From the NCBI RefSeq assembly GCF_023703775.1, contig NZ_CP098515.1, forward strand, positions 1 to 64,000: 64,000 bases of DNA. Reading direction: 5' to 3'. This DNA comes from Haloplanus sp. GDY1 (GTDB lineage Archaea; Halobacteriota; Halobacteria; Halobacteriales; Haloferacaceae). The notes beneath the pieces were generated by a model, which was given only the letters and a program-made list of their open reading frames with translations, made no database searches and had not been told where the DNA came from. Shown here piece after piece: positions 18,788 to 61,377 of this stretch; the stretch's first letter is position 1, and every line of letters starts with the position of its first letter. The position numbers and the translations under genes were made by a program.

Positions 18788-18821
18788 GAGCGATTGGCGA
18801 ACCGGTTCGAGCGTTCCAACG

Positions 18822-27544: not shown

Positions 27545-27613
27545 GTTTGAGTTTGGGTGAAGAGCGTTCGGCGCCACGGGCGCCAGCCGAGACGGTTACT
27601 CGACTGCTCTCGA

Positions 27614-31341: not shown

Positions 31342-31476
31342 AACAGGTGTGCGGGATCAGTCGAGCGAGCCTTGACCAACCGAGTTCAGGCATTCGTTCG
31401 ATGACCCCTCGCACCTTTGCATTCGCTAAAGAGCAATCTCGAAGCTCTCCGCTACCGCGCTACTGCCAGCCGAGAC

Positions 31477-40222: not shown

Positions 40223-41632
40223 TCAATCCGAGAGAGTTCGCACGACGTTGTCGACGGTAAACAGCCGGATGTCGTCGCGCTCTTCAGCAGCTTCCACGAC
40301 GGATTGCTTGAATCCGTTCCGGCTGAACAGTGCGTACTGATACGCCGGTTCCTGGCCACCCTCAGGAGTCCAGTCCACGAGGGGTACTTCGTTCTCGAGG
40401 TGGCTGAGGATATCGTATCCAACTGGGTGTCGGCGGAATTTCGCTTCACCGACCACGAGCGTGTCTCCGTCTGTCGGTGCGACGATATCGATCTCCCGAC
40501 CGCTCCCATCCCACCAGTTACTTGGCTCCTCCACGAAGCGATACTGATCACCGTACTCGTACAGAATGGTCTGCTGGCACAGCCGTTCGAAGGTACCACT
40601 GACGAAGTCCGGAAGTTCCGGTTCGACGAGGTCTGCGTACGCATCGTCGCCGTACACTTCGTACCGAGCCGTTCGACCGTACACGAACCGAAACCAGAAC
40701 CGGAACAACGGGTCACTCGTCCGGTATCGCCCTTTTCGACTTCGGTCCGGATCGACCGTAGCCGGATAGTGCTGCTCGATGATTCGGAGATCCCGGAGTC
40801 GACTGAGGTAGTAGCCAACGCTCCCGCTGGTGATGCCAGCCGACTGTGCAATCTCGTTAGGCGTCCGGTTCCCCTCAGCCATCGACTTCAGCACCGCGAA
40901 GTACCGGTCGACCTCGTCGACCTCCCGGTGGAGTACGTTCTCGGGTTCTTCGTGGAGGCTCCCGTCCCGCTGGAGCAGCGTCCGTGTGACGTTCGCTTCG
41001 AGTGGTTCGTCGTCACGGACCGCCCTGAGATACTCTGGCGTTCCGCCGAAGATGCCGTAGGTCATCACCTGCTCGGCGGGCTCGTACGCAGGGAAGAACG
41101 ACAGCGCCGCATCGAAGGGGAGCGGTCCCACATCGATCTGTCCGTTCGGGTCTTTCGCCACTCGACCATAGAGCGGTCCCGAGCCGTCGAGTGCGTACTC
41201 GTACATCATTCCGATCGCTGAGCCCGTGAGGACGAACGTCGTCGCCGTCTCCGACGCCGTGTGATCCCAGACCCGCTGGAGAATCGATGGTAGCGCCTCA
41301 GTCTGCTCAACGAGATACGGGAACTCGTCGACGACGACAATCGCATCTTCCTCTGCGAGATACCCGAAGAGCGCCTCCCAGTCCTCTCGGATCCGCGTGA
41401 TACCTGGGTACACAGTTGCGGCATCACTCGCGAACGAGCTGAGTTGCTGTTCGGCGCTCCCTCGTGTCGCTTGGTAGTAGACAGCATCATCTCGGTCCTT
41501 GATTGACTCGAGAACGAGCGTGGTCTTTCCCATGCGCCGGCGCCCATATACCACAGCAAGTGATGCGCCCTCCGTCTCGTAGAGCGCTCGCAGCCGATCG
41601 AGTTCCCGTTCTCTGTCAACGAATCGCGCCAT
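40223..41632 (-). CDS. Archaeal DUF234-type ATPase with nuclease-like C-terminus
   Basis: This 469-residue protein has a P-loop ATPase of the archaeal ATPase/DUF234 group. Walker A is VVYGRRRMGKTTLV near residue 30; Walker B is IVVVDEFPYL. A winged helix (NEIAQSAGITSGSVGYYLSR) follows. The C-terminus has a PD-(D/E)xK-like core, REIDIVAPTDGDTLVVGEAK. Such proteins are common on archaeal mobile elements and suspected of DNA-cutting or maintenance roles. The start at MARFVDRERE follows a TATA box by about 25 bp, so it is probably leaderless. Confidence 0.85.
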   Translation of the reverse strand: MARFVDRERELDRLRALYETEGASLAVVYGRRRMGKTTLVLESIKDRDDAVYYQATRGSAEQQLSSFASDAATVYPGITRIREDWEALFGYLAEEDAIVVVDEFPYLVEQTEALPSILQRVWDHTASETATTFVLTGSAIGMMYEYALDGSGPLYGRVAKDPNGQIDVGPLPFDAALSFFPAYEPAEQVMTYGIFGGTPEYLRAVRDDEPLEANVTRTLLQRDGSLHEEPENVLHREVDEVDRYFAVLKSMAEGNRTPNEIAQSAGITSGSVGYYLSRLRDLRIIEQHYPATVDPDRSRKGRYRTSDPLFRFWFRFVYGRTARYEVYGDDAYADLVEPELPDFVSGTFERLCQQTILYEYGDQYRFVEEPSNWWDGSGREIDIVAPTDGDTLVVGEAKFRRHPVGYDILSHLENEVPLVDWTPEGGQEPAYQYALFSRNGFKQSVVEAAEERDDIRLFTVDNVVRTLSD

Positions 41633-41649
41633 ACCCTGCATTCAATCGG

Positions 41650-42564: not shown

Positions 42565-44235
42565 TCATAGCCACCGTCGTCGGAGCCAGTCCCTCAGTCG
42601 TGACCCGCCATCGTCCTCGGGTGGCGAATCTTCCGCCTCGTGCTCCGATGCGGGTGACCTGGGCGTCTGTTTCGTGGGGCCTATTACGTCTCGGTCATCA
42701 CTACGCGACTCCTCGATATCGAGGTCCCCTTCAGGCGGGGCAGCAGGCTCGCCCCGTGGGTCGATATCGTCCGTATCGGCCCCGTTCTCAAGTGGATCGT
42801 CGGAAAGAGACGCGTCGCTGGACTGGAGATCGAGCGCAATGCGGTACCATCGAAGGCGTGTTTCGAGGTCTGCGATCTGCTCCTCGTAGGCATCAAGCTG
42901 CTCCTGTTGTCGCCTAACCTTGGTTGCTAGCCGCTGGGCATCCTCGACCGCGTCCATATCGAGTGGTGGCACTGTACCGTCCGTCGATCCCTCAGTAGAA
43001 CGGTGCGGACCTGCTCCCGGAGTCGACGGGGAGGGAATGGTTCGTCCAGTCGACCTCTCTGATGTCTTCCGCAGGTCGACCCCATCATCCTCTTTCGGGT
43101 CGCTCGCCGGCGGGCTGTAATAGTCGTCGAGTTTGAGGAGGGTTCGAGCGATGCAAACCTCGCCGTACGTGGCCCCGTTCCCGAAGTGACGCCGGTCCCA
43201 TTTTTCGCGCATCAACCCAGATTCCCGGAACAGTTGGTCCATCCGCTCGGGGTCGCCAGCGGTCCAGAAGGCTAGATAAAAACACAACCCCATGTCTGCC
43301 TCCGACTGCGACGGATAGCGGCTATCCCGTCCACGCCACAGCGAATGATTGCCGTCGAGGAGCGCCTGGATAGTCGCCCCGCTCTTCGAGGCCGTCGCGC
43401 GCCTGAGCAGTTCCGCGTCCGGGAGGTCCACACCCGGACCCGCAACCTCGTCGATGGTTCGGGGCACGGGATCGGGCATTTCGGCCGGCGACAGTCCATG
43501 CAGTGCCGCCTCGAGGGCCGGATCGTCCACCGCTGGCGGGTCCCGGCCGAACTTCCGGCGCAGTCCAGAGTGCGGCCCCACCGGTTGGGCCGACGCCCCG
43601 TCCTCACTCGCACCCTGTAGGGTTCCATTCGAGGTCGCCTGGTCCGTCGCCTCGGTCAGCGTGATCGCCTCGTCGTCGCCGGCGGTCTGGACGAACTCGT
43701 GATGCACCGCGAGCAGGGCGTCCTGCCGGCGGGCGACCACATCGGGTGTCTCGGAGAGGTGCGCCCCAGTCACGGTGAAAAAGCGATCCCGGTCGTACAT
43801 CTCGACGTCGCCCCGGCGGTTCCGTCCCGGCGGGAGTTCCCCCTCGACGAGAACGTGGATGCCCGTCCCCGAGGGCGAAACCTCAGTGTAGGAATCGAGG
43901 CGGTCGACGATGGCGGCAGCCCACGGCGCCAGTTCCTCGCTGTTGGCGTCGCGACAGTGATCCAAGTCGACACCGACGATCCGCTCCTCTGGGTCGAATA
44001 CGAAACCCACGCCGTCGGTCCGGGTGGACGACTCGCGATGATACGTCACCGCCGTCTCGAAGCCTCGCCACGTTCCCGGATCGGTGGCACTTGCGAACAC
44101 CGTCCCGCTCGTCGGGTAGGGTTTGATCGGGACCTTCGTCGGCTTGCCGTCGCGGTCGTCTTCACGCCAGCAAATCCACTGCTCGAGGTCGGCCAACTGC
44201 GCGGGGATCGAATCGGTGTCGAGCGTCGGTGTCAT
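42565..44235 (-). CDS. Primase-polymerase (NrS-1-like)
   Basis: This 556-residue protein has an N-terminal PrimPol domain. QWICWREDDRDGKPTKVPIK and RIVGVDLDHCRDAN carry catalytic acidic residues near residue 115. SPSGTGIHVLVEGELP and MYDRDRFFTVTGAHL are the conserved beta elements. The middle (ATASKSGATIQALLDG, then EADMGLCFYLAFWTAGDPER) resembles the helix-bundle domain of NrS-1-type polymerases. The C-terminal third is low-complexity with a coiled coil. It could prime and copy plasmid DNA. Confidence 0.85.
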   Translation of the reverse strand: MTPTLDTDSIPAQLADLEQWICWREDDRDGKPTKVPIKPYPTSGTVFASATDPGTWRGFETAVTYHRESSTRTDGVGFVFDPEERIVGVDLDHCRDANSEELAPWAAAIVDRLDSYTEVSPSGTGIHVLVEGELPPGRNRRGDVEMYDRDRFFTVTGAHLSETPDVVARRQDALLAVHHEFVQTAGDDEAITLTEATDQATSNGTLQGASEDGASAQPVGPHSGLRRKFGRDPPAVDDPALEAALHGLSPAEMPDPVPRTIDEVAGPGVDLPDAELLRRATASKSGATIQALLDGNHSLWRGRDSRYPSQSEADMGLCFYLAFWTAGDPERMDQLFRESGLMREKWDRRHFGNGATYGEVCIARTLLKLDDYYSPPASDPKEDDGVDLRKTSERSTGRTIPSPSTPGAGPHRSTEGSTDGTVPPLDMDAVEDAQRLATKVRRQQEQLDAYEEQIADLETRLRWYRIALDLQSSDASLSDDPLENGADTDDIDPRGEPAAPPEGDLDIEESRSDDRDVIGPTKQTPRSPASEHEAEDSPPEDDGGSRLRDWLRRRWL

Positions 44236-44629: not shown

Positions 44630-47600
44630 TCACTCGCTCTCCTCGTCTGAGAATGCCTCCACGGCATCGATGAGGTTGGTCGCGCCGAGGATTCGCCACT
44701 CGGTCAGGTCACCGAACGTCTCTTCGGAGATCGTTTCATAATTGTTGATACTTTTGTATGGGACGTCACTCACTCGTCCCGCCTCGTGAAGGGTTCTGAC
44801 AAGTTCGTGGGCGGTGTCGTAGTTGGGGACGACCCACACCCGCAGAAGACCCTCGGTCCGAGCCATGTCGTCGTAGTGCTTGACGATCCACTCGGGTCGA
44901 AGATTCGTGACCACCTCGCCGACGCATCGGAGTCGCCGGGTACCGTCTGAGTGCTCAATAAACGCGGCGACATCATAGATAATCCCGCCCCCCATCGGCT
45001 CATAGTAAGTCTCGACAACGAACTCCTGACGCTCGATGTAGCGTTTGAGGTACTCGACGTACACTTTGTGCTGAACCTTCTCGTGCGGGTCGCCGGTGTT
45101 ACGACCGCGGTACAACGTCCGGTCGACCACCGTCTGTCCCTCGGGAGTGACGTAGTAGTACTTGCGGCCACGGATGCGCTGGATCTCCAAGTATCCGTAT
45201 TCCTCCAGTTTCGAGACATCGATGTCACTACCGGCGGTGTTCCTAATCGTAGTCATCGATTCCGTGAGGTCGTAGCCACCGAGTTCACCGTTCAGCGCGT
45301 CGATCACGCATCGGAGAAAACGACGTTCATCGTCGGTCAACGCCCCATCTCGCGCCACGTCGTTGGCGTCTTGTTCTGAGGTACCGCCATCTGACGTTCG
45401 GGATGTGGCATCGCCACCGGGTTGGGAGTCGGGATCGTCCGAGTCAGGTGTCCCGCTAGAGAGGCCATGTCGGGTCCGTACGGAGAGATCCTCCGAGGGT
45501 GTCGTGCCGGTACCCATGGTCGTTCCGAACTCATTCGAGCCCCCACCGGACCGAGAGCGTCCGTCTGCATGCTCGTTCGAGGACTGGTCGTCGTTCTGTT
45601 CCGACGATTGCTCGCTCGACGTGTCTGTGCTACTGCGCTTGCCATGACGCTCATCAGGATCCTCGTCGGTAGTCTGTCCGGTGTGTTCGGTCGCCTCCAC
45701 CGGCCTGTCGGTTCTACCGGAATTCGTGGCGCCAGCTCCCCATCGCGCAACACGCTGGGCAGCATCGGGCGGACAGTTCACTCCCGGCAGGAGGCAGTAG
45801 GTAAATCGCGTGCGCGACCACTGGAGGTGATCCGCCTCCTGATAGGTCTGTGCTTGCGCTCCCCCATCTCCGGGATCCGAGCGATACGTCCCAGGATGTA
45901 CGGGGTCGTCGCTGTCGCTGTGACCGGACGGAATCGGGAGCGGTTTGAGCGTCACCAGCTCCGGGGTGTCAGTCATGAACCCCGTATCAGGGAGTTGAGC
46001 CAGCCACTCCCCGCGAGGGAGTGAGGCAACCCGGTTGGCCAGCCCTTCAGCGTCCAAGTCCTCGTGGAACAGTGTCGTCGCGAGTTCGTCGTCGATGGCG
46101 AGCTTCCCGATTAGCTTGGTGTTGATGTTCCGGAGGATCTCCTTGTACGCTCGCGTGTCCAGCGCGTCGCGTTTGACCTGTTCAGGGAAGTGGACGATCA
46201 CCTCGAATGCGAGGGCGAACTCCCGAGCGTCGGGAATCATCTCGTTGCGGACCAGACCGGCTTTCAGCACCGGCGCGGCCTCGTCGATAATCAGGTTCAC
46301 GCAGTAGCCGTCCGCCGGGCCGGGGAGGTCCCGATCCCAGCGCTTGCGCAGCCGGACCCACGACCAGAGATAATCGAGCATCAGTACCGTGAACAGATTG
46401 CTCGAGGCTGGCCGGAGATCCCCCGTGTCGATGAGGACGACCGTCGTCGAGTCGAGTAGCGCATCCAGATTGAACAACATCTGGTCGTCAGCGTAGGTGT
46501 CGGCGGTGTCGTCCCACTCGGGAACAAAATTGAGCATCCGCCAGATGAAATCGCGTTCGCGGAGTTTGGTGATCCGATTCAGCACCGCGTCGATGGAGGT
46601 TGCAAATCGGCGTGGATCACCGCTGAGGTGACGTCTGAGCGTTTGATCGAGATCATTATCCGTCACCTTCGGGAGATACTGGTCGCCTTGTATCTCGGCG
46701 CCTGTTCGCTGCATCTCGATGACGGCCTTCTGCATCTCGGTAGCCGCCGTGAGCAGGTCGCTGATCGCGTAGGCGTCCTCGCCGTGGATGGGGTCGAAGA
46801 GCGCAACGATCAGGTTCGAGAGGATTTCCTGAGCGACGAACGCCTGGTTGTGCTGTTCCTCGCCGAGGACGTACGTGAGCAACTCGTTGTACCGATCCAC
46901 CTTCTCCTGGACGGCCGCCTCCCGCGAGATCCCGGCGGCGAGCTGCGGCCGAATGTCGAAGAACGGGAATGCCGGCAGTTCGCCGTTCGGCCCCGGCACC
47001 GGCAGATGGACGATGTCATCGAGGTCACCAAACCGGTGAAAGTGGGCCCGCTTGTACTCGCTGGCCATGCTGCCGCCCTTCTTATCGAAGATGAAGATCG
47101 GCCCGTCGAGTTCCGCGTAGGCGGTTAGCGCATCGTTGATCATCGCGGTGGTCTTCCCGCTGCCCGTCGTCGACGCCCGGAGGACGTGGTGGACGAGTTG
47201 TTCCGCGGTGAGGTGAACTGGAATATTCCGGCGTGAGAGTGCGGCTGTCTCCGCCTCGCCGATGCACATTCCGGTGTCGAAGGTCCGGAGCAGTTCTTCG
47301 TTGGTTGCGGTCAGTGGCGACCGCACGTCTGGAGCCCCACCAGACGCCCCGCGACTCGGCTTGGGAAGTGCCCCCGTGCTGGGGACGGTGACGAAGTTCG
47401 CGAGTTCGTCCGGGCTGGTGACGATCACTGGCGCGTCGTCACCGAAGCGATCTCTGAACCCGACGCGCCCGAGTTGGGCCTCGGTGAGTCGTCGGTACTC
47501 GCGGTCGGCGTCGCCAAGCACGCTCCCCTCGATCCCATAGTAGGGACCGCTAAGCGCGGTGAAGGCTCCCGCGATGCCACCGATGACGGCCGTGTCGCCG

Positions 47601-48775
47601 GCGGCTCTGATGGAAACATCGAAGGTCACAGCGGGCTGTTTGAGGTCGATCTGTCCCATCCGACTGTGCTGAGTGGACTGTCCACTAGCATCCGGGCCGC
47701 TGATGGTGCCCCCGATCTGTTCGGGTGTATCCGGGCGGTGACGCTGGCGTCGTTCCTCCTCGGAGGTTCCGAGCAGCGTCGCCGCCGCCTCTTGCTTGAA
47801 CGCGCTCCACATGCTCGTCGTTCCCATCTTGAGGTTGCGCTTGTGGCGTTCGGCATCCCTCGTCCAGTCGCGCTTCGGCGTGAACACTACCTGGTAGACG
47901 AACGGCTCGTCGGTCGCGAGCGCCTGTTCGAGGAGAACGCTCAACGGGGAGCGATACCCGTCGTCAGCGTCTAACGAAAGTTCGCTAAATCGCGAAAGCA
48001 GGGTCATCCAGTCGTTGTTCTTCGTCTCGACGCCGTGCCATCGGACGAATTCGGGAGGCTCGCGCTCGTCGGCGTCACTTAGGCCCTCACCCGTAAGTGG
48101 ATGAGCCGCCTCAATGTCGAGCGGCTCGAAGCCCTCCAGTTGACCGAGTTCGTCGATGCCTTCGAACTCGGCGAGTTGTGCGGCCTCCCCCGAGGCGGAT
48201 GGCTCGAATACTTCAGTGACGGAGAAGGGGACGACCTCGAAGTGGAACGACTCGGGGTACATCGCTCGAACGTTCGCCGCGAGCGTCTCGAAGGCTTCCC
48301 GCTCGTAGGGGCGGACGCCGAGGTAGAAGTCGAACCGCTGCGTGGCCCGTGGCTTGTGGATCAGGAACTCGAAGGTGAGACGCGTACTAACGAACGAGAG
48401 TCGCTGTTCGAGGCTGAAGGGCATCTGCCGGCCGCTCCCAGTTCGATAGAGTCCGTATAGCGCTTTGACGACGTGACCCGGCGTGACCTGCTCGCGGGCC
48501 GGTGTGATCTTGATGAATGGTCGTGCAGTGTCGTTCGACTCCGCGGCACTCGAAGAGTCGTCCGAATCCCCGTCTATGGAGTCGTCGTCCGCACTCGCCC
48601 CTGACGAGGTATTCTGTGCGTCGGTGGTCTCTGAGGTGGGCGAACCTTCTGAGTCTCCAGTGTCGATGTCGCTCGGGGCAGTACCCTGCAGGCGGGTCGC
48701 CACAGCCGTGCGGAGTTCGTCGTCGCTGACATCCGGTATTCGACCGCGATGCTTCGACCGATCTGGCTCACGCAC
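44630..48775 (-). CDS. TraD/VirD4-like conjugative coupling ATPase with C-terminal extension
   Basis: This 1381-residue protein should couple DNA to the transfer channel. Walker A is RASTTGSGKTTAMINDAL near residue 538, followed by IFIFDKKGG. Walker B is YCVNLIIDEAAPVLK near 828. Acidic spacers surround the N-terminal ~480 residues. A winged-helix-like region (near residue ~1200) precedes a C-terminal ~180-residue domain (EYLKRYIERQEFVVETYYEP, then IIYDVAAFIEH) with strand-acid patterns of a restriction-like fold. A GTG start is used. The size far exceeds bacterial VirD4 (about 600). Confidence 0.88.
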   Translation of the reverse strand: MREPDRSKHRGRIPDVSDDELRTAVATRLQGTAPSDIDTGDSEGSPTSETTDAQNTSSGASADDDSIDGDSDDSSSAAESNDTARPFIKITPAREQVTPGHVVKALYGLYRTGSGRQMPFSLEQRLSFVSTRLTFEFLIHKPRATQRFDFYLGVRPYEREAFETLAANVRAMYPESFHFEVVPFSVTEVFEPSASGEAAQLAEFEGIDELGQLEGFEPLDIEAAHPLTGEGLSDADEREPPEFVRWHGVETKNNDWMTLLSRFSELSLDADDGYRSPLSVLLEQALATDEPFVYQVVFTPKRDWTRDAERHKRNLKMGTTSMWSAFKQEAAATLLGTSEEERRQRHRPDTPEQIGGTISGPDASGQSTQHSRMGQIDLKQPAVTFDVSIRAAGDTAVIGGIAGAFTALSGPYYGIEGSVLGDADREYRRLTEAQLGRVGFRDRFGDDAPVIVTSPDELANFVTVPSTGALPKPSRGASGGAPDVRSPLTATNEELLRTFDTGMCIGEAETAALSRRNIPVHLTAEQLVHHVLRASTTGSGKTTAMINDALTAYAELDGPIFIFDKKGGSMASEYKRAHFHRFGDLDDIVHLPVPGPNGELPAFPFFDIRPQLAAGISREAAVQEKVDRYNELLTYVLGEEQHNQAFVAQEILSNLIVALFDPIHGEDAYAISDLLTAATEMQKAVIEMQRTGAEIQGDQYLPKVTDNDLDQTLRRHLSGDPRRFATSIDAVLNRITKLRERDFIWRMLNFVPEWDDTADTYADDQMLFNLDALLDSTTVVLIDTGDLRPASSNLFTVLMLDYLWSWVRLRKRWDRDLPGPADGYCVNLIIDEAAPVLKAGLVRNEMIPDAREFALAFEVIVHFPEQVKRDALDTRAYKEILRNINTKLIGKLAIDDELATTLFHEDLDAEGLANRVASLPRGEWLAQLPDTGFMTDTPELVTLKPLPIPSGHSDSDDPVHPGTYRSDPGDGGAQAQTYQEADHLQWSRTRFTYCLLPGVNCPPDAAQRVARWGAGATNSGRTDRPVEATEHTGQTTDEDPDERHGKRSSTDTSSEQSSEQNDDQSSNEHADGRSRSGGGSNEFGTTMGTGTTPSEDLSVRTRHGLSSGTPDSDDPDSQPGGDATSRTSDGGTSEQDANDVARDGALTDDERRFLRCVIDALNGELGGYDLTESMTTIRNTAGSDIDVSKLEEYGYLEIQRIRGRKYYYVTPEGQTVVDRTLYRGRNTGDPHEKVQHKVYVEYLKRYIERQEFVVETYYEPMGGGIIYDVAAFIEHSDGTRRLRCVGEVVTNLRPEWIVKHYDDMARTEGLLRVWVVPNYDTAHELVRTLHEAGRVSDVPYKSINNYETISEETFGDLTEWRILGATNLIDAVEAFSDEESE

Positions 48776-48921: not shown

Positions 48922-49311
48922 TCACCCGGCGATGAACTCGAGCAGGGAGACGAGGGCACCCAGCCCGAAGTACGCGACGACCATCGCAGCCCCACCCATC
49001 GTGAGTTTCATGCCGGTTTCGGAGCGCTGTGAGTTGTTCCGGGCGCTAAGCCAGACGATGAACCCCAACACCAGTATGGTCAATCCAGCGTACTGGAGCG
49101 TGATGTAGAGGACGTTGTACAGGTTATCGAGGATCGTCTCCCAACCGGATGTGTTTCCTCCGCCCCCGCCGACCGGCGCCTGTGCCGCAGCACCGCCGGT
49201 GAAGAAGACGAGGGTGACGAAGACCGCGATGAAGACGATCTCGAAACTCAGGATGGAGTTCAGACATTTGAGGCGATTCGACAGTCGGTTGACGGCGTGC
49301 TTGGGAATCAT
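48922..49311 (-). CDS. VirB2/TrbC-like pilin candidate
   Basis: This 129-residue protein has an N-terminal signal/TM region (FEIVFIAVFVTLVFFTGGAAAQAP) ending in AQA, a plausible signal-peptidase site, followed by a glycine-rich stretch. Two more hydrophobic helices follow (NVLYITLQYAGLTILVLGFI and MGGAAMVVAYFGLGALVSL). The cleavage-plus-two-helix layout is that of conjugative pilins. A triple 17-bp-period box array sits 45 bp upstream of the start. Confidence 0.65.
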   Translation of the reverse strand: MIPKHAVNRLSNRLKCLNSILSFEIVFIAVFVTLVFFTGGAAAQAPVGGGGGNTSGWETILDNLYNVLYITLQYAGLTILVLGFIVWLSARNNSQRSETGMKLTMGGAAMVVAYFGLGALVSLLEFIAG

Positions 49312-49355
49312 TGCACGGCCGCCGTTTGCGCCCAACTGTGATTGTAGTATCAGGT

Positions 49356-49404
49356 GTTCGCACTGCGTACCCGTGCGCGATGCGCACTCGTACGCGTTGC
49401 GTAC
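49356..49404. promoter_or_regulatory. Triple array of the 15-bp palindromic box
   Basis: Boxes at 49356 (GTTCGCACTGCGTAC), 49373 (GTGCGCGATGCGCAC) and 49390 (GTACGCGTTGCGTAC), each 15 bp with 2-bp spacers, so an exact 17-bp period. The array lies 45 bp upstream of the pilin ATG on the minus strand, just upstream of a TACTACAA TATA-like box, suggesting cooperative regulator binding. Confidence 0.8.
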
Positions 49405-53302: not shown

Positions 53303-55621
53303 TCATACTGGACGACATCGCATATACCGCATCCAGAACACCGCGAAAATCCCGAGCACCAGCCACTCGACGAAGAGCATCGCATTCGATACTGCGTCGT
53401 TCAGGTAGCTAACCACTTCGATCGCGTCGACGAAGATTGAGGCACTCGAGACAGCCACCGCCTGCGTCCGCAGGTAGTACGTCGAGTGGGGTTCCCACCA
53501 GTCGTCGCCGGTGAACCGCGCTTGGACGATTGGTCTGTTAATGTCGACCGTCGCGACGCCGCTCGCATTCGTGACCACCGCCGGGACCGTTGCCCCGTCG
53601 ACATAGACCTCCCGCCCGCTAATCGGTGTGCCGTCCGTCTCACGGAGGGTTATTTCCGCGGTGCCCGTTCCGTCGTCAATCGTCACGTTCAGCACCGCTT
53701 CCTCGTACCGTGTGACCTGCTTCCGTGTCGTCACCGGGAACCCCCAGATATCGACGGCACTGACGGAAATCGACTCGCCGGTCACGGCATCCGTACTCTT
53801 CAGGGTGCCCGCATACTGGTCATATAGCGGGGTTCGATTCGCGTTCTCTGGCGCGACGATCGTATCTGGAAGGGGTGTCGCTGCAACCGACCCAGCCTCG
53901 TCGGCACGGGTCGTCTCCCACCAGATGTGCCGGTCGGCGGGCTGGTCGGCGAGGACGCTCACGTTCGCGGGACTCATCCGGTACCGCAACATCGCCGGAT
54001 ACTGCCCGCCGTACGAATGCGACGCGGCGACTTCCGAGGTCCCGCTCTCGGTTCGTTCCTCGACAGCGGTGTTCCGCGAGACAGAGAAGAACCGCCACGG
54101 GGCAGTCACGTACATCGTCTTCTCACCGACCTGCACCTCGACGCGCTCCCAGCCAGCGGCGCCGGCGGCCAGTCCTTGTGCACCCGTCCACTCGACTGAG
54201 ACGACATCGTCACCGGGCCGGTCGTAGACGCGGACATCGACCGAGAGGTCGTCGCTGTTTATCGTCTCGATAGGCACCGACCGCGTGAGCGTAACCGATC
54301 GGGTTTCGACCCGCGTCCGATCCCAATCACCACACCGGGAACTGGAAACGCCGTAGCGCTTCTGGAGTTCGACATCGATCTGGAGTGTGGCAGTCATGGT
54401 ATGGATGCCGACAGGCAACGGCCTCGGCTCGGACAGCGGCGAGGTATAGTTCAGCGTCGTCCATTGGCCCGGTCCCCACTGCTGCATACTGATATTGCCT
54501 GCAGTGACATCCACTACCGTGGCCTCCGAGTCCAGTAGTCGGTAGTTCGCCCACCGCGTGAGCGAGTAAGATTTCCCATTGATGGTACAGGAATCGCTCT
54601 CGGAGTAGTCCGTGGGCACGCTGATGCGGTAATCCCACGGAATGTACGTGTTCACCTGCCGGGTCTGGGTAACGTATCGATTCCGGTACCAGACGCCTGG
54701 TGTGACATCGATGAAGCCGAGATAGGCGTCTCGAACCAGATCGTGCGAGCCACTACGCCACACGAGCGAGGTCGACGCCCCGTCGACGGTCGGAAACACT
54801 TCGCTCCCATTGTCCATCGGAACCGCTACCGTGCTCCGGGCGACGCTCTCGCTCGGCGCGAGTTCGGAATACCGGAGGAGTCCTTCGACGATATCGCGCT
54901 TCCGGTCGGTGATCGTCTGGTACTCAGCGGACTGTACCAACGCTGTCCCAGGGTTGGTAACCTCGGGGACACTCCCGTTCACCTCGACTTCAGCACCGTA
55001 CACGGGATTCCACCAGCCGTTCGGGTTCCGCACCTCGACCGTATACTCCCCGTCAGTGTCCGTTGCCTGGCTCGGATCGGCGTCGTAGAGCGGGAGGATG
55101 CGGAGTTCCCGGTCACCCCACTTGGTGTTCCACTCCTCGAGTGTGTACCACCGATCCCGATAGGGAATGGTGTAGTAGCCGGTGAGCCCGCTCTGGTACA
55201 TATCCGACTCGTTGGCGATGACGAGTGCGTCGCGCGGGCGGATGCTGTCCTCCCAGAGCTGAACCGGCTGCGTGACGACGGTCTGATTGACCTCTCGGAT
55301 GGTACCGTTGTCGTACTCGTAGATCTGAATCGTGCTTGATCCTCGGGCTGGATCGGGATCGTTGCTGGCGAGCACCCGAAACGTGTCGTTATAGGTTCGG
55401 TCAACGCCCGGCTCGGGTTCAGGGATCGTCAGTCCACCGCTAAATGCCGCCCCTGCAAGGGTGCTCGTAACGACCAAGAGAACCACCCCGACAGTAACGA
55501 TCCGCGAGCATCGACTGACCATCCGACGGAGTCGGAAGCCACCCGCATCACGACGCGCTGACGGCGATTGCTCGCGTGTCCGTTCCTGGGACGGACGCAC
55601 TCCCGTCTCATCCGAGGACAT
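53303..55621 (-). CDS. Large surface-exposed membrane-anchored protein of the conjugation operon
   Basis: The protein has 772 residues. An N-terminal hydrophobic segment (IVTVGVVLLVVTSTLAGAAF, ~residues 41-60) acts as signal or anchor. A long extracellular beta-rich region follows (about 70-725), rich in T, S and aromatic residues, with N-glycosylation-type N-x-S/T sites and an Ig/carboxypeptidase-regulatory-like repeat near 640-700 (LRETDGTPISGREVYVDGAT). A C-terminal helix (SNAMLFVEWLVLGIFAVFWM) ends in basic residues. It may be a contact or adhesion protein for mating. Its start overlaps the preceding gene's stop. Confidence 0.7.
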   Translation of the reverse strand: MSSDETGVRPSQERTREQSPSARRDAGGFRLRRMVSRCSRIVTVGVVLLVVTSTLAGAAFSGGLTIPEPEPGVDRTYNDTFRVLASNDPDPARGSSTIQIYEYDNGTIREVNQTVVTQPVQLWEDSIRPRDALVIANESDMYQSGLTGYYTIPYRDRWYTLEEWNTKWGDRELRILPLYDADPSQATDTDGEYTVEVRNPNGWWNPVYGAEVEVNGSVPEVTNPGTALVQSAEYQTITDRKRDIVEGLLRYSELAPSESVARSTVAVPMDNGSEVFPTVDGASTSLVWRSGSHDLVRDAYLGFIDVTPGVWYRNRYVTQTRQVNTYIPWDYRISVPTDYSESDSCTINGKSYSLTRWANYRLLDSEATVVDVTAGNISMQQWGPGQWTTLNYTSPLSEPRPLPVGIHTMTATLQIDVELQKRYGVSSSRCGDWDRTRVETRSVTLTRSVPIETINSDDLSVDVRVYDRPGDDVVSVEWTGAQGLAAGAAGWERVEVQVGEKTMYVTAPWRFFSVSRNTAVEERTESGTSEVAASHSYGGQYPAMLRYRMSPANVSVLADQPADRHIWWETTRADEAGSVAATPLPDTIVAPENANRTPLYDQYAGTLKSTDAVTGESISVSAVDIWGFPVTTRKQVTRYEEAVLNVTIDDGTGTAEITLRETDGTPISGREVYVDGATVPAVVTNASGVATVDINRPIVQARFTGDDWWEPHSTYYLRTQAVAVSSASIFVDAIEVVSYLNDAVSNAMLFVEWLVLGIFAVFWMRYMRCRPV

Positions 55622-56191: not shown

Positions 56192-56257
56192 TTACGGGAA
56201 GCGTACACGTACGCATTGCGCACACGTACGGGTCGCGCACAGTTGCGAGATGCGTAC
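56192..56257. promoter_or_regulatory. Quadruple array of the 15-bp palindromic box
   Basis: Four boxes at exactly 17-bp period: 56192 (TTACGGGAAGCGTAC), 56209 (GTACGCATTGCGCAC), 56226 (GTACGGGTCGCGCAC) and 56243 (TTGCGAGATGCGTAC). The second is the best match. The array lies between the two divergent operons; the nearest plus-strand start (56300) is 43 bp beyond the last box, the usual distance. It is probably the main operator of the conjugation regulon. Confidence 0.8.
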
Positions 56258-56876: not shown

Positions 56877-57314
56877 ATGCCCGATCCAGTACCGGTCGCA
56901 AGTAACCTGCTGGAATCGAAATTCCTCGGGTTCTCTGTCCGCCGATTGCTGGAGTCGATGGTGATCCCAGTCGCACCCTGCGCGATCCTCTACACCATCG
57001 GATTCCCACTGCTGTTCACCTTCCCGCTGTTCGTCGTGGGGATCGGTGTCGGGGTGCTCGTCTTCGTGAAGACCCCACCCGGACAACGCCCGCTGCGATA
57101 CGCCCACGCAGTCGTCCGACACCGGTCGGGTGAGAACGTCTACGTCTGGGCACCCTCGCCCGAGCTGGAGAACGACCTCGCAAGCGGGGCTCGACAGGAC
57201 GACTGGCTGACCCAGCTGCCCAACTCGGGTGTCACTCCGCGCCGTCCCCGAAACGCCGTGGCCACCGACACACCAGCTGGCGCGGGAGAGAACGCCGACG
57301 AGGAGGCCCTTTGA
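56877..57314 (+). CDS. VirB3-like T4SS membrane protein
   Basis: This 145-residue protein has a hydrophobic hairpin near residues 30-65 (MVIPVAPCAILYTIGFPLLF and TFPLFVVGIGVGVLVFVKTP) after an N-terminal KFLGFSVRRLLES segment, and a hydrophilic C-terminal tail. Position between the small proteins and the VirB4-accessory gene and the two adjacent helices match VirB3. Its stop overlaps the next start (TGATG). Confidence 0.65.
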   Translation: MPDPVPVASNLLESKFLGFSVRRLLESMVIPVAPCAILYTIGFPLLFTFPLFVVGIGVGVLVFVKTPPGQRPLRYAHAVVRHRSGENVYVWAPSPELENDLASGARQDDWLTQLPNSGVTPRRPRNAVATDTPAGAGENADEEAL

Positions 57315-58843
57315 TGGCGGCCATCGGTCGGTCGACGCTCGATCTCGTGAACTTCGAGAACGTCCGCGACGGGGGTGTCGTCGAGACACCGACCGCGTAC
57401 GCAATGCTGGTCGAAATCGAGCCTCGGGAGTGGCTCACACTCTCCGAGGAGCGCCGCTCGGGCGTCTATGTCTCGTTCCTGACGTTCCTCCGTGGGCTCC
57501 AGTTCCCGGTACAATTCCTCACGATGACCACAGAGTTCGACGGCGAGCAGTACATTGAGCAGTTCGTCGGGCCCGAGTCGCCGGACGCCCCAACCGCGGT
57601 GACGACGCCAGTGATGAATCCCGACGGGACAGCCCCTGACGAAACGGTGTCCGATACAACTGACTCAGTGGGCGAGATTTCCGCGACCGATGGCGGTGTC
57701 AAGACCGGTACAGGTACCGACGCCGTCGCCGACTCGGCCGTACTCGAGTACGGCCGGGTAGCTCACGCCGAGTGGCTGGACCGGACGCTACGGATGGCAA
57801 ACGTCCGTGACCGACGATTCTTTGTCGCCGTCGCAGTCGAGAAGGGCGAGGATGACAGCGAGGGAGGCAGCCGGTTCGACGGGGTCCGCGACGCCCTGCC
57901 ACTCCCCACCCGTTCTCGATCCGTCGACGCCGAGGAGTTCTACCTCGACGAGGTGTGGGCCCGCACCCAGCGCGTCGCATCCCAGTTGCCCCGGACTCGC
58001 GTCGAGGCGAACATCCTCGATTCCCGCGAAGCTGTTCTCGACGTACTATACCGCGTGTACCGCGGACGAGAGCCGCCACTTGCATTCAATCAAGGTACGC
58101 TCGTCGGAGTCGCAGACGATGCCCTCACCGATGCCAACGGTGGTCTCCTCGATCTGGAGAGTGTCTTCGATGACGCCGACCGAGAGGCGACAACTGCCGC
58201 TGAAGAGTCCGAACCGGAGGACCGCCCCGAGACAGTCGGTGACCTCCCATACGACGGGCACGTCCAAGAGGAGTACGTTGAAGCTGTCGACGGGTCGCGC
58301 CTCCTCCAATGGTACGTCCGGAACGTCGGACCGATCGGGCGTGGGGAGAGGTTCCACTCGCCGGCGTCGGTCTACCTCGGCACGGGCACGTTCGTCGCCA
58401 GCCTCGTCCTCGCGATCGTCGCGCTCGGTGCGTTCCTCGGGAGTTCCCAGCAGCTTCCCGTCGACACCCCACCCCTCCTAGTGCGGGAGGTTTCCTTCGG
58501 TCTCGCCGCCGGGAGCCTCCCAACCTTCCTGCTGAGTCTCGTCGTGCTACTCCCCTCACGGCAGATTGCGCAGAGCCTCGCCGTACTCGGGGTCGGAGTG
58601 GCGGCCGCGGCGATCGCGCTATTCGAGGCGGCCTATCCGGCTCAGTGGACCAGCACCCCAACGGGTCAGACGGCGGTGGTGGTGCCGGTGTACGCAGCCG
58701 GCCTCTTCGTCCTCGTCGTGTCGGTCAGCTTCGCCGTTCGATCACGCCGGACTGCCCTCGATCACGTCGACGACGCTCCTGCTCAAGAGGTGCCACCCGT
58801 GGCCGAGGATACCGGGGCTCGTCCGGAGGCAAGCGATGGCTGA
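57314..58843 (+). CDS. VirB4-accessory-like membrane protein
   Basis: This 509-residue protein's N-terminal ~250 residues (AYAMLVEIEPREWLTLSEER, then VSFLTFLRGLQFPVQFLTMT) resemble the N-terminal region of VirB4/TraC proteins without ATPase motifs. A linker follows. The C-terminus has about four helices (TFVASLVLAIVALGAFLGSS, SLPTFLLSLVVLLPSRQIAQ and two more). It may anchor VirB4 to the membrane. The gene starts at an ATG overlapping the previous stop; 66 bp separate it from virB4. Confidence 0.65.
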   Translation: MAAIGRSTLDLVNFENVRDGGVVETPTAYAMLVEIEPREWLTLSEERRSGVYVSFLTFLRGLQFPVQFLTMTTEFDGEQYIEQFVGPESPDAPTAVTTPVMNPDGTAPDETVSDTTDSVGEISATDGGVKTGTGTDAVADSAVLEYGRVAHAEWLDRTLRMANVRDRRFFVAVAVEKGEDDSEGGSRFDGVRDALPLPTRSRSVDAEEFYLDEVWARTQRVASQLPRTRVEANILDSREAVLDVLYRVYRGREPPLAFNQGTLVGVADDALTDANGGLLDLESVFDDADREATTAAEESEPEDRPETVGDLPYDGHVQEEYVEAVDGSRLLQWYVRNVGPIGRGERFHSPASVYLGTGTFVASLVLAIVALGAFLGSSQQLPVDTPPLLVREVSFGLAAGSLPTFLLSLVVLLPSRQIAQSLAVLGVGVAAAAIALFEAAYPAQWTSTPTGQTAVVVPVYAAGLFVLVVSVSFAVRSRRTALDHVDDAPAQEVPPVAEDTGARPEASDG

Positions 58844-58909: not shown

Positions 58910-61285
58910 ATGATCCAGCGACTCAAACACGCTCTCGGTCTCGACGGGCCTGACGACGGCGTCGAGTCCGTCCCGATCGACGACCTATCCGGCGAGGAAA
59001 CCCAGCACGCAATCGACTACCTGCACCTCCTCGACCGCGAGACCACAACCGAGAACATCGAGTGGGCCGCCTACCAGTTGCAGGCCGACGAGGTCGGACT
59101 CGCGAACGCGATGGAGACCCTCGAGGAGCGGGGCGAACTCGACAAGCGGATCGTCGCCCCACGGCTCGTCGAGGATCACCCGCAGTTCCAGATCCGCGAC
59201 GACACCGTCTCGCAGATCCTGACCGTCACCTCGCTCCCACGGAAGGTGGGCCTCGGGTGGCTCGTGCCGCTCACACTCGCCGACGTCGACCTCCGGCTGA
59301 CGTTTCACGTCCGGCCACGGGAACCGAAGGACGTCCGCCGGCAACTCCAGAAGCGCTACACGCAGGCGGTTACCTCGCTTGCGCTGAAGCAAAAACGCGG
59401 CCGAACCGACACCTATCAAGACCAACTCGACCGCGAGGACCTCGAACGCCTACTTCAGCGGACCATCCGCGGCACGACCAAGCTGTACGACGTGGCGATC
59501 TACCTCGAACTGGTCGCCGACTCCCGTGACGACCTAGACGGGATGCTCGACAGAGTGGAGGCGATCCTCGCCGAGCAGGATGTCGAGCTGAGTCCGGTGA
59601 AACACCAGCAACTCGACGCGATGGACGCCATCGTCCCGGTGGTGACCGATCCGGTCGACAACACTCATCCGATCCAGCTCGAAGCACTCGGGACGTTCTT
59701 CAACCTCGTCGAGCCCTCGATCTACGACCCGAACGGCGTGCTCTTAGGCTTCGACGATACCAAGCGCCCCGTCATCCTGAACCGGTATGCCCTCTCCGGG
59801 CACTCGATGGCCATCTCGGGAAAGACGGGGTCGGGGAAGAGCTACTTCCGCAAGCTGGAGATCTACCGGCGCCTGCTCGCGGATGCGAACGTCCAGTGTA
59901 TCCTGTTCGATCCCGCCGGCGACGACTACCCGCGGTTCGCACAGTCTCTCGGCGGCGAAGTGATCCGCTTTGGTGGGAATTACACCGTCAATCCAATGGA
60001 CATCTCGCCGCCGGCGACGGCCGAACAGGAGACCGGCGACGACACCTACGCACTCACCATCCGATCGGTGATCGAGATGCTGCACACCCACTTCGACCAG
60101 CGCGATGGGATGTCCGCCGGCGAGGAGGGCGTACTCATCCAGGCCGCCCACTACGCCTACATCTCGAAGGGCATCATACTCGGCGAGTACGAGACCTACG
60201 CTCGAGAGTCACCCACGCTCGATGATCTGATTCGCGGTGTCACCGTGATCGCCGCCGGCGGGCTCGAGGCGGCACGTAAAGCGGACGTGATCGACGAAGT
60301 CGAACTCGATCTGTTCCAGTCCTACGGGGTGACTGAAGTCGAGGAGGACGGTGAGCAGCCGACAAGCGAGTCCTCGGATAGTAGCGGGATCTCGATCTCG
60401 GATACGATCGTCACGCCGACCAATCACCACCAGGAACTGGCACGGAATCTCCAGCCGAAGTTCGAGTCGTTCAAACCCGGCGGTATCAATCACAATCTGA
60501 ACGGCCAGACGAATTTGGATCTCTCCTCGCGACTGGTCGTGATGGATATGAGCTCGTTCGCCGACACCGGCGAAATGCCACTCATCCTCCACGCCATGCT
60601 CTCGTGGGCCTACCTCGAAGCCAAGCGCTCCCCCTACAAAGTGGACGTCACGTTCGACGAAGCCCACTACCTGCTGGGTCGACCGGCAGCGCGGGATCTC
60701 ATCAACCTATACATCCGTCACGCTCGGCACTACGAGGCCGGCCTGACGCTGATGAGTCAGACCTCCCACGAATTCGTCCGGACGAACGAACGCCGCGAGG
60801 TCTACGAGAACTGTGACGTGAAGTGCCTGTTCTACGCCGAATCGGTCTCCGAACAGACCCAGCAGTACTACGGGCTGTCGAGTGACGAGATTCGGTTCAT
60901 CCAGTCAGCCGCCCGCGGACAGGACTCGAACTACTCGGAGTGTCTGCTCGCGACCAGCGTCCACGGTCGCCGTCGGTTGGAGGTGCGAAGCGGCCCGTTC
61001 GAGCATCACGTCCTCGACGATACGCTTGATCCACGGGAGTGGCTGGCGGAGATAGATAGTGTCGTCCACGGCAACAACCCAGAGGACGACGTTCTCCTGA
61101 CGGACCTCGAACTGACCGACCTCCCCCACGTGATGAACCGGGACATGGATCTCGAAATGGCGATGCAGGAATCCCACGAAGACGGCATCAGCGCCGATGT
61201 CCGAGGGCTGGAGAGTGATGCCACCAGGGCGAGCAACGGCGCAGTTGCTGATGACCGTCGATCTGACCGCGGGGAGGATCAGTAA
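58910..61285 (+). CDS. virB4: VirB4/TraC-like T4SS ATPase
   Basis: This 791-residue VirB4-family ATPase energises pilus and channel assembly. N-terminal ~280 residues form the CagE/TrbE-like domain (VSQILTVTSLPRKVGLGWLV). Walker A is MAISGKTGSGKSYFRKLE near residue 303; Walker B is DVTFDEAHYLLG near 578. The C-terminal ~60 residues are hydrophilic and variable. Its stop overlaps a tiny downstream ATG (TAATG). Confidence 0.92.
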   Translation: MIQRLKHALGLDGPDDGVESVPIDDLSGEETQHAIDYLHLLDRETTTENIEWAAYQLQADEVGLANAMETLEERGELDKRIVAPRLVEDHPQFQIRDDTVSQILTVTSLPRKVGLGWLVPLTLADVDLRLTFHVRPREPKDVRRQLQKRYTQAVTSLALKQKRGRTDTYQDQLDREDLERLLQRTIRGTTKLYDVAIYLELVADSRDDLDGMLDRVEAILAEQDVELSPVKHQQLDAMDAIVPVVTDPVDNTHPIQLEALGTFFNLVEPSIYDPNGVLLGFDDTKRPVILNRYALSGHSMAISGKTGSGKSYFRKLEIYRRLLADANVQCILFDPAGDDYPRFAQSLGGEVIRFGGNYTVNPMDISPPATAEQETGDDTYALTIRSVIEMLHTHFDQRDGMSAGEEGVLIQAAHYAYISKGIILGEYETYARESPTLDDLIRGVTVIAAGGLEAARKADVIDEVELDLFQSYGVTEVEEDGEQPTSESSDSSGISISDTIVTPTNHHQELARNLQPKFESFKPGGINHNLNGQTNLDLSSRLVVMDMSSFADTGEMPLILHAMLSWAYLEAKRSPYKVDVTFDEAHYLLGRPAARDLINLYIRHARHYEAGLTLMSQTSHEFVRTNERREVYENCDVKCLFYAESVSEQTQQYYGLSSDEIRFIQSAARGQDSNYSECLLATSVHGRRRLEVRSGPFEHHVLDDTLDPREWLAEIDSVVHGNNPEDDVLLTDLELTDLPHVMNRDMDLEMAMQESHEDGISADVRGLESDATRASNGAVADDRRSDRGEDQ

Positions 61286-61377
61286 TGCGGCCACCGCTCA
61301 CCGAGAGCCGATTCCTCCCATCGTGTGCCTGGTCGACGTCACTGTCGCCTATACTGGAAGGTGAGCGCCGTGGCTGA
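61285..61377 (+). CDS. 30-residue bridging ORF between VirB4 and VirB6
   Basis: A 30-codon frame (MRPPLTESRFLPSCAWSTSL, then SPILEGERRG) starts inside the virB4 stop codon (TAATG) and ends inside the GTG start of the VirB6-like gene (GTGGCTGA). The double overlap fits translational coupling and argues it is translated, if only to carry ribosomes onward. No function can be read. Confidence 0.4.
   Translation: MRPPLTESRFLPSCAWSTSLSPILEGERRG

Follow-up and report, generated by a model that had tools for sequence, protein, structure and literature searches.

If a haloarchaeal plasmid encodes parts of a conjugation-like apparatus and no recognizable relaxase, what prepares its DNA for transfer? 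The question is raised by a gene for an unusually long ATPase in the window, i.e., the 64,000-nucleotide stretch of Haloplanus sp. GDY1 DNA analysed here (contig NZ_CP098515.1, positions 1 to 64,000). An initial annotation had described the product as a coupling ATPase twice the usual size, with a C-terminal restriction-like domain of ~180 residues that might cut transfer DNA, an interpretation that our analysis supports in part. In the reading that we prefer, with a probability of about one half, the protein would serve a haloarchaeal conjugation-like (type IV secretion) system as its coupling-type DNA translocase, with a tail that recognizes plasmid DNA and makes a nick or cut.

Regions with homologues of VirB4 and VirD4/TraG/HerA beside XerC/D-type recombinases have been reported on the Haloferax volcanii chromosome and in fusexin elements, and were read as possible DNA transfer systems; the sections of these reports that we drew on, which allow comparison by description only, do not mention a fused nuclease (PMC2841640, PMC9259645).

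Gene and Domain Organization

The reading frame runs from a GTG start without internal stops, as first described, and it is a real gene rather than a chance ORF. Over its full length, the product shares 94.5% identity with WP_157969460.1, a protein from Haloplanus rubicundus pCBA1112-01 whose annotated RefSeq start is the equivalent of the start in the window. For this one pair, dN/dS was low in the ATPase (0.05), the winged helix (0.12) and the nuclease-like part (0.12), which argues against a chance ORF; the values for the linker and the first 84 aa were 0.32 and 1.29, respectively.

As shown in Table 1, the N-terminal domain and the ATPase (about 930 aa together) are followed by a linker of ~130 aa and a two-domain tail of about 237 aa, which account for the excess length. 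The phrase "twice the usual size" is correct with respect to VirD4 (~600 aa, the figure used in the initial annotation), but it misleads, as the ~930 aa also align loosely to the VirB4 protein TrwK.

Simple hydropathy analysis gave no transmembrane helix in the window protein, and no transmembrane segment over threshold in nine of the ten fused relatives tested; the exception, L124, had a single weak segment, located at ORF residue 391. In a split relative (L068), a separate N-terminal gene holds two transmembrane segments by the same method. An N-terminal transmembrane anchor is typical of VirD4/TraG, if not universal. The window protein differs from the VirD4 type by its lack of an anchor (by hydropathy), its VirB4-like N-terminal domain and its winged-helix/PD-(D/E)XK-like tail.

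Table 1. Features of the ATPase gene and its surroundings (window coordinates)
Feature	Coordinates	Strand	Basis or remarks
Coupling-type ATPase with winged-helix and nuclease-like tail	44630..48775	-	1381 aa, whole gene
N-terminal domain, aa 85-480	47336..48523	-	model aligned to VirB4 TrwK; hydropathy
P-loop ATPase domain, aa 481-1014	45734..47335	-	invariant columns; fold matches
ATPase motifs			Walker A G538-S-G-K541-T; Walker B D831-E832
Low-complexity acidic linker, aa 1015-1144	45344..45733	-	sequence; dN/dS 0.32
Winged helix-turn-helix domain, aa 1145-1220	45116..45343	-	model; MarR/TubR/RosR-type matches; PadR
PD-(D/E)XK-like domain, aa 1221-1381	44633..45115	-	model topology; structure matches; conservation
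PD-(D/E)XK-like domain residues			H1236, D1268, E1287 (E-V-V), K1299, Y1301
VirB2/TrbC-like pilin, directly upstream of ATPase gene	48922..49335	-	PF04956 E 0.0032, below Pfam cut-off
Primase-polymerase-like gene downstream of ATPase	42565..44235	-	PF22763 6.8e-27; PHROG primase 1.8e-79
VirB4-type ATPase	58910..61285	+	PF12846 1.4e-6 and PF01935 4.1e-10, both over cut-off
VirB6/TrbL-like membrane protein	61325..63343	+	PF19590 E 0.0017, below cut-off
DUF7139 membrane protein upstream of VirB4	57311..58843	+	PF23600 5.3e-26; also in C3 cluster
Large secreted/membrane protein with Ig-like part	53303..55621	-	also in C3 cluster
DUF234-type ATPase gene	40223-41641		candidate-defence model PDC-S27 at 6.1e-39
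Three TGCGYAC iterons, 17-bp spacing, upstream of pilin gene	49364..49404	+	
Four TGCGYAC-type iterons, 17-bp spacing, between divergent transfer-gene clusters	56200..56257	+	

Kinship of the ATPase

The window protein contains the Walker A and B motifs of a P-loop ATPase of the FtsK/HerA superfamily, and the columns G454, G456, K457 and E748 of an alignment of 17 ORFs over 850 aa (A2) were invariant. The predicted model of the ATPase domain matched DndH-C, VirB4, HerA and TrwB with Z scores of 22–25; the values for VirB4 (23.3), HerA (22.2) and TrwB (22.0, rmsd 4.4 over 376 aligned residues) are ties by the tool's own note. The N-terminal domain and the ATPase could be aligned together to VirB4 TrwK (8rtd_g) across 560 residues, a loose match (Z 16.8, rmsd 7.8) spanning model residues 1 to 904. 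VirB4, however, has no such tail, and the window system has a VirB4 gene of its own.

Among Pfam models, PF01935 alone matched the window protein, below its cut-off. Among four relatives scanned, the cut-offs of coupling-protein models were passed by L169 (PF02534), L172 (PF10412) and L129 (PF10412 and PF12696), and none by L166. The NCBIfam model SXT_TraD was matched by 8/17 members at E ≤ 0.01 and the VirB4_CagE model by 1/17, so that sequence models favour TraD.

The ATPase is of the coupling-protein/HerA/VirB4 kind, its gene being linked to those for a pilin, VirB4 and a primase. In the preferred reading it would work like a coupling protein; we do not file it as a canonical VirD4. Like VirD4, TraD, TrwB and TraG, it is an FtsK/HerA-superfamily ATPase linked to VirB4 and a pilin, being encoded together with VirB4, VirB6-like and pilin-like genes of a mating-pair apparatus.

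Fold of the Tail

Structure prediction of the tail yielded an AlphaFold model with a mean pLDDT of 92.6. A clear non-nuclease fold was not seen; the C-terminal domain has the alpha-beta-beta-beta-alpha-beta core of the PD-(D/E)XK superfamily, and its structure matches agree with a restriction-like fold. What did not survive was the notion of a single restriction-like domain, as the tail begins with a winged helix of ~76 aa. This part resembles MarR/TubR/RosR-type structures (Z 6–8), and Pfam PadR was matched at E ≤ 0.1 by 8 of the 33 tails that a redundancy filter left in alignment A1.

The VIA matches of the nuclease-like half were AF1548 (Z 8.7, rmsd 3.8, 109 residues aligned), SPO1766 (7.3), Can2 (7.2), R.BspD6I2 (6.8), FokI (6.7) and a Pyrococcus repair endonuclease (6.7), which we take to be NucS; Z scores of 6.5–8.7, as found for the PD-(D/E)XK structures, are middling by the tool's own note. 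When the whole tail was searched with Foldseek, the sole match under E 0.001 was Cdn1 (7.8e-4), with a poor rmsd of 12.1, followed mostly by winged-helix proteins. Sequence profiles of the nuclease part gave no PDB match at E ≤ 10, and Pfam families were each matched by at most 2 of 48 members (A4, drawn from the 107 tails described below), with one member matching PDDEXK_4 at E 0.1. The window ATPase protein had no match in PHROGs, and none was found in phage records.

A pump joined to a nuclease could also work on DNA ends. The tail might be the one-protein analogue of HerA–NurA, trimming or resecting double-stranded DNA to single strands without any site-specific nick, and the ATPase does fold like HerA as well as TrwB and VirB4 (the ties given above). 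HerA–NurA and Thermus TdtA/NurA combine a HerA-family pump with a nuclease and, in the sections of the reports that we drew on, no relaxase (PMC5365140, PMC9905601); the former has been proposed to supply the ssDNA in archaeal Ced/Ted transfer (PMC9905601), and efficient transjugation in Thermus is described as requiring a NurA-like nuclease encoded next to a HerA-family ATPase (PMC5365140). However, HerA and NurA are two proteins, and NurA is described as having a different, RNase H fold (PMC9905601), whereas the nuclease-like domain of the window protein lies inside the ATPase polypeptide. Moreover, in the tails examined the winged helix sits between the ATPase and the nuclease-like domain, which suggests sequence recognition and makes mere end processing unlikely. 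To our knowledge, HerA–NurA has no winged helix in between.

Conservation of the Nuclease-Like Domain

Conservation was assessed on 107 non-identical tails, which remained of 118 tail matches once identical ends and those covering less than 60% of the model had been removed. In all 107, residues G93, H101, D133, E152 and W179 (tail numbering) were invariant, with His1236, Asp1268 and Glu1287 (window protein numbering) unchanged. At the ExK position, 98 tails have ExE and nine have Ex[V/I], the latter forming one monophyletic group that includes the window protein (9/9). None of the 107 carries the lysine of the D...(D/E)xK active site at its usual position, hence the name PD-(D/E)XK-"like"; a loss by the window clade of an ExK lysine that its relatives keep is thereby ruled out. 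An ExE active site is present in some nucleases, such as BamHI.

Because ExE is replaced by Ex[V/I] in the window clade, its sequence leaves the nuclease activity of the window protein uncertain, and the domain may be impaired or altered. A lysine in the next helix is found at Tyr-2 in 9/9 window-clade tails and at Tyr+2 in 84/98 ExE members, positions one helical turn apart, so that the window-clade lysine is placed as if the catalytic lysine had shifted.

The window-clade domain could be a nuclease fold that has lost catalysis and is retained to bind DNA, to dimerise or to control the pump, as ExV/ExI in 9/9 clade members and a family-wide lack of the ExK lysine would allow. Yet the H, D and first E are invariant in 107/107 tails, the lysine looks relocated, and purifying selection persists (one pair measured), all of which renders loss of catalysis quite unlikely.

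Distribution and Gene Linkage

The tail is not peculiar to this plasmid, since at E ≤ 0.001 it was matched, in some cases only in part, in at least 118 of 292 Halobacteria genomes; a place outside the matches listed may still hold a weak match. In a phylum-wide sample of 392 genomes, every strong match fell inside the window's order, and in five genomes outside it the matches covered the winged-helix part only.

We tallied the neighbourhoods (fetched stretches of about 11–20 kb) of 76 loci that encode the fused protein, namely six hand-named window-clade loci, 37 loci of group B, defined by a VirB4 match, and 33 of group C, with VirB4 absent within the fetched stretch. Pilin and primase relatives accompany the gene in 6/6 window-clade loci, one member of this clade (G135:C3) having VirB4 about 62 kb away on its contig. 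In group B, primase was present in 37/37 loci and TrbL/VirB6 in 33/37; since VirB4 defines the group, these two figures are the independent ones. In group C, primase was found in 9/33 loci and integrase relatives (five queries) in 3/33. Given the 33/76 VirB4-less loci and the primase count among them, transfer cannot be the sole role of the fused ATPase, unless these copies act in trans, and it may have other roles. Five haloarchaeal VirB4 loci had neither the ATPase nor the tail within 19 kb.

Defence or plasmid competition, with a HerA-like pump and nuclease carried by mobile elements to destroy foreign DNA, would suit those 33 loci, the weak scores of defence models against the window protein (mad8 3e-5, HerA 0.015), the relative of the DUF234-type ATPase gene (PDC-S27, 6.1e-39) near 8/33 group-C copies and the common defence design of HerA with nuclease partners (structures matched), but is very improbable in view of the VirB4/primase or pilin/primase linkage in the other 43 of 76 loci and of a top group-C neighbour family, an OB-fold gene, that reaches no more than 11/33 loci, ORFs overlapping the ATPase gene aside.

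An ATPase-only search, independent of the tail-based choice of loci, gave matches in 65/116 genomes and revealed a further clade (group D), with VirB4 in 14/15 fetched loci. The group-D tails, read only in these 15 loci picked from that search, are a diverged copy with H, PD and ExE in 14/14 readable cases (A5); in the remaining one, L178, the H, PD and ExE are visible ahead of an unknown residue that ends the readable part. By hhalign, group-D and window-family tails are in register (nuclease part: probability 76.9, pairwise E 2.1e-5; whole tail: probability 53.9, E 1.3e-4). The tail is present in 110/113 ATPase ORFs, the other three being short or overlapping pieces, although this count is not independent, because L005–L034 and L053–L134 (own-genome pieces aside) were picked for their tail.

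Search for a Relaxase

In agreement with the initial annotation, no relaxase was recognized among the 20 window proteins scanned. The search elsewhere on the genome that it had proposed likewise gave no match to PF03432, PF08751, PF02486 or PF07514, mostly bacterial families whose positive controls responded. PF13814 (Replic_Relax) and PF01076 had no match in the genome, with controls silent too, and the 14 families listed at E ≤ 0.1 for the 33 tail members do not include PF13814. In PLSDB, 140/140 plasmids with a relative are typed as non-mobilizable; a mating-pair apparatus type (MPF_T) is assigned to only one of four named plasmids, and none is stated for the others. MOB-suite and the Pfam relaxase models are built mostly on bacterial relaxases, so this silence is weak. 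The GIY-YIG nuclease beside the H. rubicundus cluster was discarded as a general nickase, none being seen by eye in the first ~3 kb past the equivalent place in the Haloplanus sp. GDY1 plasmid, a weak test.

Proposed Role

Under the preferred reading, that of a coupling-type translocase with a DNA-recognizing and DNA-cutting tail, the winged helix would bind a plasmid site, the nuclease-like domain would open a strand or an end, and the ATPase (hexameric by analogy) would thread the DNA to VirB4, VirB6 and the pilin; we infer both this direction of pumping and conjugation itself. The neighbouring primase-polymerase would make the complementary strand, and one protein would do the work of a bacterial relaxase plus coupling protein. 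A simple transfer nuclease, as first suggested, is a weakened proposition because the window clade lacks the second acid of ExE, the family lacks the ExK lysine, and 33/76 loci lack VirB4.

The MOBC relaxases (TraX of pAD1, MobC of CloDF13) are described as PD-(D/E)XK-related and start conjugative transfer (PMC12857230), but they are separate proteins, whereas the nuclease-like domain here is part of the pump. In the Streptomyces transfer ATPase TraB, a C-terminal HTH is reported to recognize 8-bp plasmid repeats (PMC5365140). arCOG03166, compared by description only, is listed in archaeal islands and joins an AAA+ ATPase to HTH and RecB nuclease domains (PMC4158269). In the literature examined, whose coverage is partial, we found no description of an ATPase–winged-helix–nuclease fusion. 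TraB belongs to a different ATPase branch and, as far as we know, has no nuclease domain.

A bolder version, which we put forward tentatively as possible rather than probable, is that a single protein replaces the haloarchaeal relaxosome, a PD-(D/E)XK-type nickase and a winged helix for origin recognition being mounted on a coupling ATPase that finds, opens and pumps the plasmid. If true, this would account, as far as haloarchaea are concerned, for the lack of a visible relaxase on archaeal conjugative plasmids. MOB typing, with its 140/140 non-mobilizable calls, would then miss a large class of transferable archaeal plasmids, provided that the nuclease is active in transfer.

The tail-bearing ATPase is a testable candidate for the missing DNA-preparing step in archaeal cell-to-cell transfer, and a concrete one, as a conserved nuclease-like module on a coupling-type ATPase, with named residues and a small operon. 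Such an operon, consisting of VirB4, the ATPase and primase, is found on a Haloferax plasmid, and Haloferax is a genetically tractable genus.

Neither the stretches around the C3, L072 and L073 pilin genes nor the region where the L136 operon begins showed tandem repeats resembling the 17-bp iterons. In the window itself, the TGCGYAC iteron pattern has five matches, against a shuffle mean of 0.05.

Domain Organization of the Fused ATPase

Judged from sequence comparisons and predicted structures, the 1381-residue product is a coupling-type ATPase that carries a DNA-binding and nuclease-like module of its own, an arrangement widespread among haloarchaea. Its gene is a single uninterrupted frame, in keeping with the initial annotation, which had described a coupling-type ATPase of this length with an added C-terminal domain. 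The contig, C2, measures 154,567 bp (the window being its bases 1-64000) and belongs to a genome of 3.44 Mb in four contigs. The closest named relative of the fused ATPase (94.5% identity, full length) is carried by pCBA1112-01, a plasmid of Haloplanus rubicundus, so the window probably comes from a Haloplanus plasmid. Two further copies were found in the same genome, one on contig C3 (52% identity) and one on C4, in two pieces (39% and 32%).

The dN/dS ratios, computed for one pair (the protein and its H. rubicundus copy), were lower in the two domains of the C-terminal tail than in the linker, so that the tail domains appear better kept by selection than the linker.

Domains of the fused ATPase, with dN/dS from a single pair (the window and H. 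rubicundus copies), and other features of the replicon and its relatives
Feature	Position	dN/dS	Remarks
Fused ATPase gene	44630-48775, minus strand		1381 aa
Fast-changing N-terminal stretch	aa 1-84	1.29	
N-terminal domain	aa 85-480	0.09	
P-loop ATPase	aa 481-1014	0.05	
Linker	aa 1015-1144	0.32	
Winged helix	aa 1145-1220	0.12	
Nuclease-like domain	aa 1221-1381	0.12	
VWA-domain protein and AAA_5 (MoxR-like) ATPase	15374-20516		
Small AbrB-like/toxin-like pair	18158-18787		Between VWA and AAA_5 genes; named by eye
79-aa ORF	22480-22719		Similar to a portion of the protein encoded at 26039-27577 (2e-33); partial duplication
Type III-like CRISPR effector parts	23027-25652		Csm3-like (3.8e-6) and Cmr3-like (1.3e-8) matches, on plasmid
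PCNA and TFB genes	30400-32690		On plasmid; relatives also adjacent on C3
ATPase_2/DUF234 gene	40223-41641		PADLOC candidate-defence model PDC-S27, 6.1e-39
Three and four TGCGYAC-type iterons	49364-49404 and 56200-56257		Exact 17-bp spacing; each array in an intergenic region among the transfer genes
AAA+ ATPase gene (C2, just beyond the window)	L035:1530-3176		Directly 3' of VirB6-like gene; N-terminal hydrophobic stretches; CDC48-like by eye; H. rubicundus equivalent annotated ATP-binding protein
Chromosomal copy of part of the cluster, other species of the genus	G239:C1:380975-385414 (partly in L008)		Tail pieces 92% and 80% identical, interrupted; adjoining VirB4 97% identical to the window's

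The structure predicted for aa 85-1025 (mean pLDDT 78) matched DndH-C (Z 24.6), a Thermoanaerobacter VirB4 (23.3), Sulfolobus HerA (22.2) and TrwB (22.0); the VirB4 protein TrwK aligned loosely along the length of the model (Z 16.8, 560 residues, rmsd 7.8). When 17 family members were scanned at E ≤ 0.01, eight matched the SXT_TraD coupling-protein model and one the VirB4 model, HerA being the only match for the window's own protein. Pfam cut-offs for coupling-protein families were passed by three of the four distant members scanned, and none by the window protein. Comparison with hhalign (probability 96, 302 columns) showed the family profile and the VirB4 profile to be related but not the same. 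On the combined basis of fold, sequence-model matches and profile comparison, we named the protein a putative coupling-type ATPase whose N-terminal domain is VirB4-like. It was not filed as a canonical VirD4, because a simple hydropathy test found no transmembrane segment in it.

Predicted Fold and Putative Active Site of the Tail

The model of the tail, built from 33 sequences, had a mean pLDDT of 92.6 and a pTM of 0.89. It contains a winged helix, then a helix (tail residues 99-113), three strands (118-123, 132-139 and 145-153), a helix (159-170) and a strand (176-181); as modeled, the order of elements after the winged helix is that of a PD-(D/E)XK core. Structure matches to the second half of the tail (Z 6.5-8.7) included AF1548, SPO1766, Can2, R.BspD6I2, FokI, PaqCI, a Pyrococcus repair endonuclease, LmuA and BstEII. 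Such Z scores are middling for this tool, and we therefore give more weight to the motif and to how consistent the matches are with one another. Foldseek returned a single match under E 0.001, Cdn1, with a poor rmsd. The restriction-like end proposed in the initial annotation is borne out by model and matches; the winged helix ahead of it had been missed.

Across 107 non-identical tails, the window's included, G93, H101, D133, E152 and W179 (protein G1228, H1236, D1268, E1287 and W1314) were invariant, and residue 97 was E in 100, D in six and G in one. The aspartate starting the second strand and the glutamate ending the third occupy the positions of the catalytic acids in the PD-(D/E)XK superfamily. 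Two residues beyond E152 there is E in 98 tails and V or I in nine; the lysine of the canonical ExK motif occurs there in none of the 107. The nine Ex[V/I] tails, among them those of the window and of the C3 copy, form a single clade (support 1.0). In 84 of the 98 ExE tails, a lysine lies two residues after the conserved tyrosine of the next helix (tail residue 166). That lysine is absent from all nine Ex[V/I] tails, in which another is found two residues before the tyrosine, one helical turn away. From the alignment, the latter may be a shifted catalytic lysine, but the change amounts to a single evolutionary event, and 14 ExE tails are also without the lysine.

Tails also occur as standalone ORFs of 272-377 aa at six loci (L055-L060), which group together in a clade of their own and have more residues between ExE and the helix that follows; another short copy, the seventh (L075), falls in the window's clade. 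Integrase or recombinase-like genes, named by eye, were near the standalone tails in all four of the six loci that were read. From these copies it follows that the module is also able to function, or to travel, by itself.

Distribution and Gene Neighborhood

The tail was present in 118 of 292 Halobacteria genomes, and when 392 genomes sampled from the whole phylum were searched, strong matches were confined to the window's order. Neighborhoods were counted at 76 loci that had been fetched for their tail and whose fused protein has 800 aa or more. The six loci of the window's clade all have pilin and primase, with VirB4 inside the fetched stretch in two. Outside that clade, VirB4 was in the stretch at 37 loci, accompanied by primase in every case and by TrbL/VirB6 in 33; its frame overlaps that of the ATPase at 33 of these loci and is 1-7 kb distant at four. 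At the other 33, the fetched stretch held neither VirB4 nor TrbL, and nine of those had primase.

Larger separations were also seen. VirB4 lies ~10 kb from the fused ATPase, on the opposite strand, in the window; ~9-10 kb away on C3 and in surveyed genomes G135 (contig C4), G108 and G217; ~62 kb away on contig C3 of G135; and, in G113, the two genes are close to opposite contig ends. The gene order on Haloferax lucentense pSVX82-3, typed non-mobilizable and MPF_T, is TrbL/VirB6, unknown, VirB4, fused ATPase, primase and primase-associated protein.

As the tail had been the basis for choosing those loci, an independent check was made by searching with nothing but the ATPase domain. It gave matches in 65 of 116 genomes and revealed a further clade, at roughly 34-39% identity, absent among the tail matches listed. 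Fifteen loci of this clade were picked by hand and fetched, 14 of them with VirB4. Their tails open with a winged-helix-like stretch, after which come H-D, P-D and E-x-E (three motifs in 14 of 14 readable). The window-family tail profile found 14 of the 15 at the right place, at E values between 0.006 and 4.4, most of which would not be significant by themselves. Profile-profile alignment placed H, D and ExE in register, with probability 76.9 and pairwise E 2.1e-5 for the nuclease part, and 53.9 and 1.3e-4 for the whole tail. The order of ATPase, winged helix and nuclease-like domain has therefore been kept while the sequence diverged almost past recognition.

The three members of this clade scanned with Pfam (L166, L169, L172) have a further ~300 aa with a Pox_D5-like stretch near the C-terminus (E 0.0004 to 0.095, below cut-off), a resemblance that suggests a link to primase-helicase proteins. 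Five chromosomal haloarchaeal VirB4 loci (L160-L164), with neither coupling-type ATPase nor tail in the 19 kb fetched, perhaps represent a different type IV-like system.

Possible Role in DNA Transfer

The lack of a visible relaxase, noted at first for the window, extends to the whole genome: PF03432, PF08751, PF02486 and PF07514, whose positive controls were detected, gave no match, nor did PF13814 and PF01076, for which the controls were silent. All 140 plasmids with a relative of the fused ATPase were typed non-mobilizable. According to reviews, archaeal conjugative plasmids have no recognisable relaxase, and HerA-NurA has been put forward as the source of ssDNA (PMC9905601). VirB4/VirD4 or TraG homologues have been noted in haloarchaeal regions, and the portions of those genome papers that concern them make no mention of a fused nuclease (PMC2841640, PMC9259645).

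The suggestion that the domain might cut transfer DNA is plausible. In the most likely mechanism, to which we assign a probability of about one half, the tail would prepare the transfer DNA and the ATPase would pump the DNA so prepared; its boldest form, site-specific nicking by the tail, seems to us less likely than not. Two points chiefly speak against the mechanism: the motif is altered in the clade to which the window belongs, and VirB4 is missing from the fetched stretch at 33 loci, eight of which have nearby a relative of the candidate-defence ATPase gene at 40223-41641.

The two iteron arrays have no counterpart elsewhere on contig C2, with up to one mismatch allowed. They are conserved in H. 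rubicundus pCBA1112-01 and are a candidate for a shared operator or transfer site.
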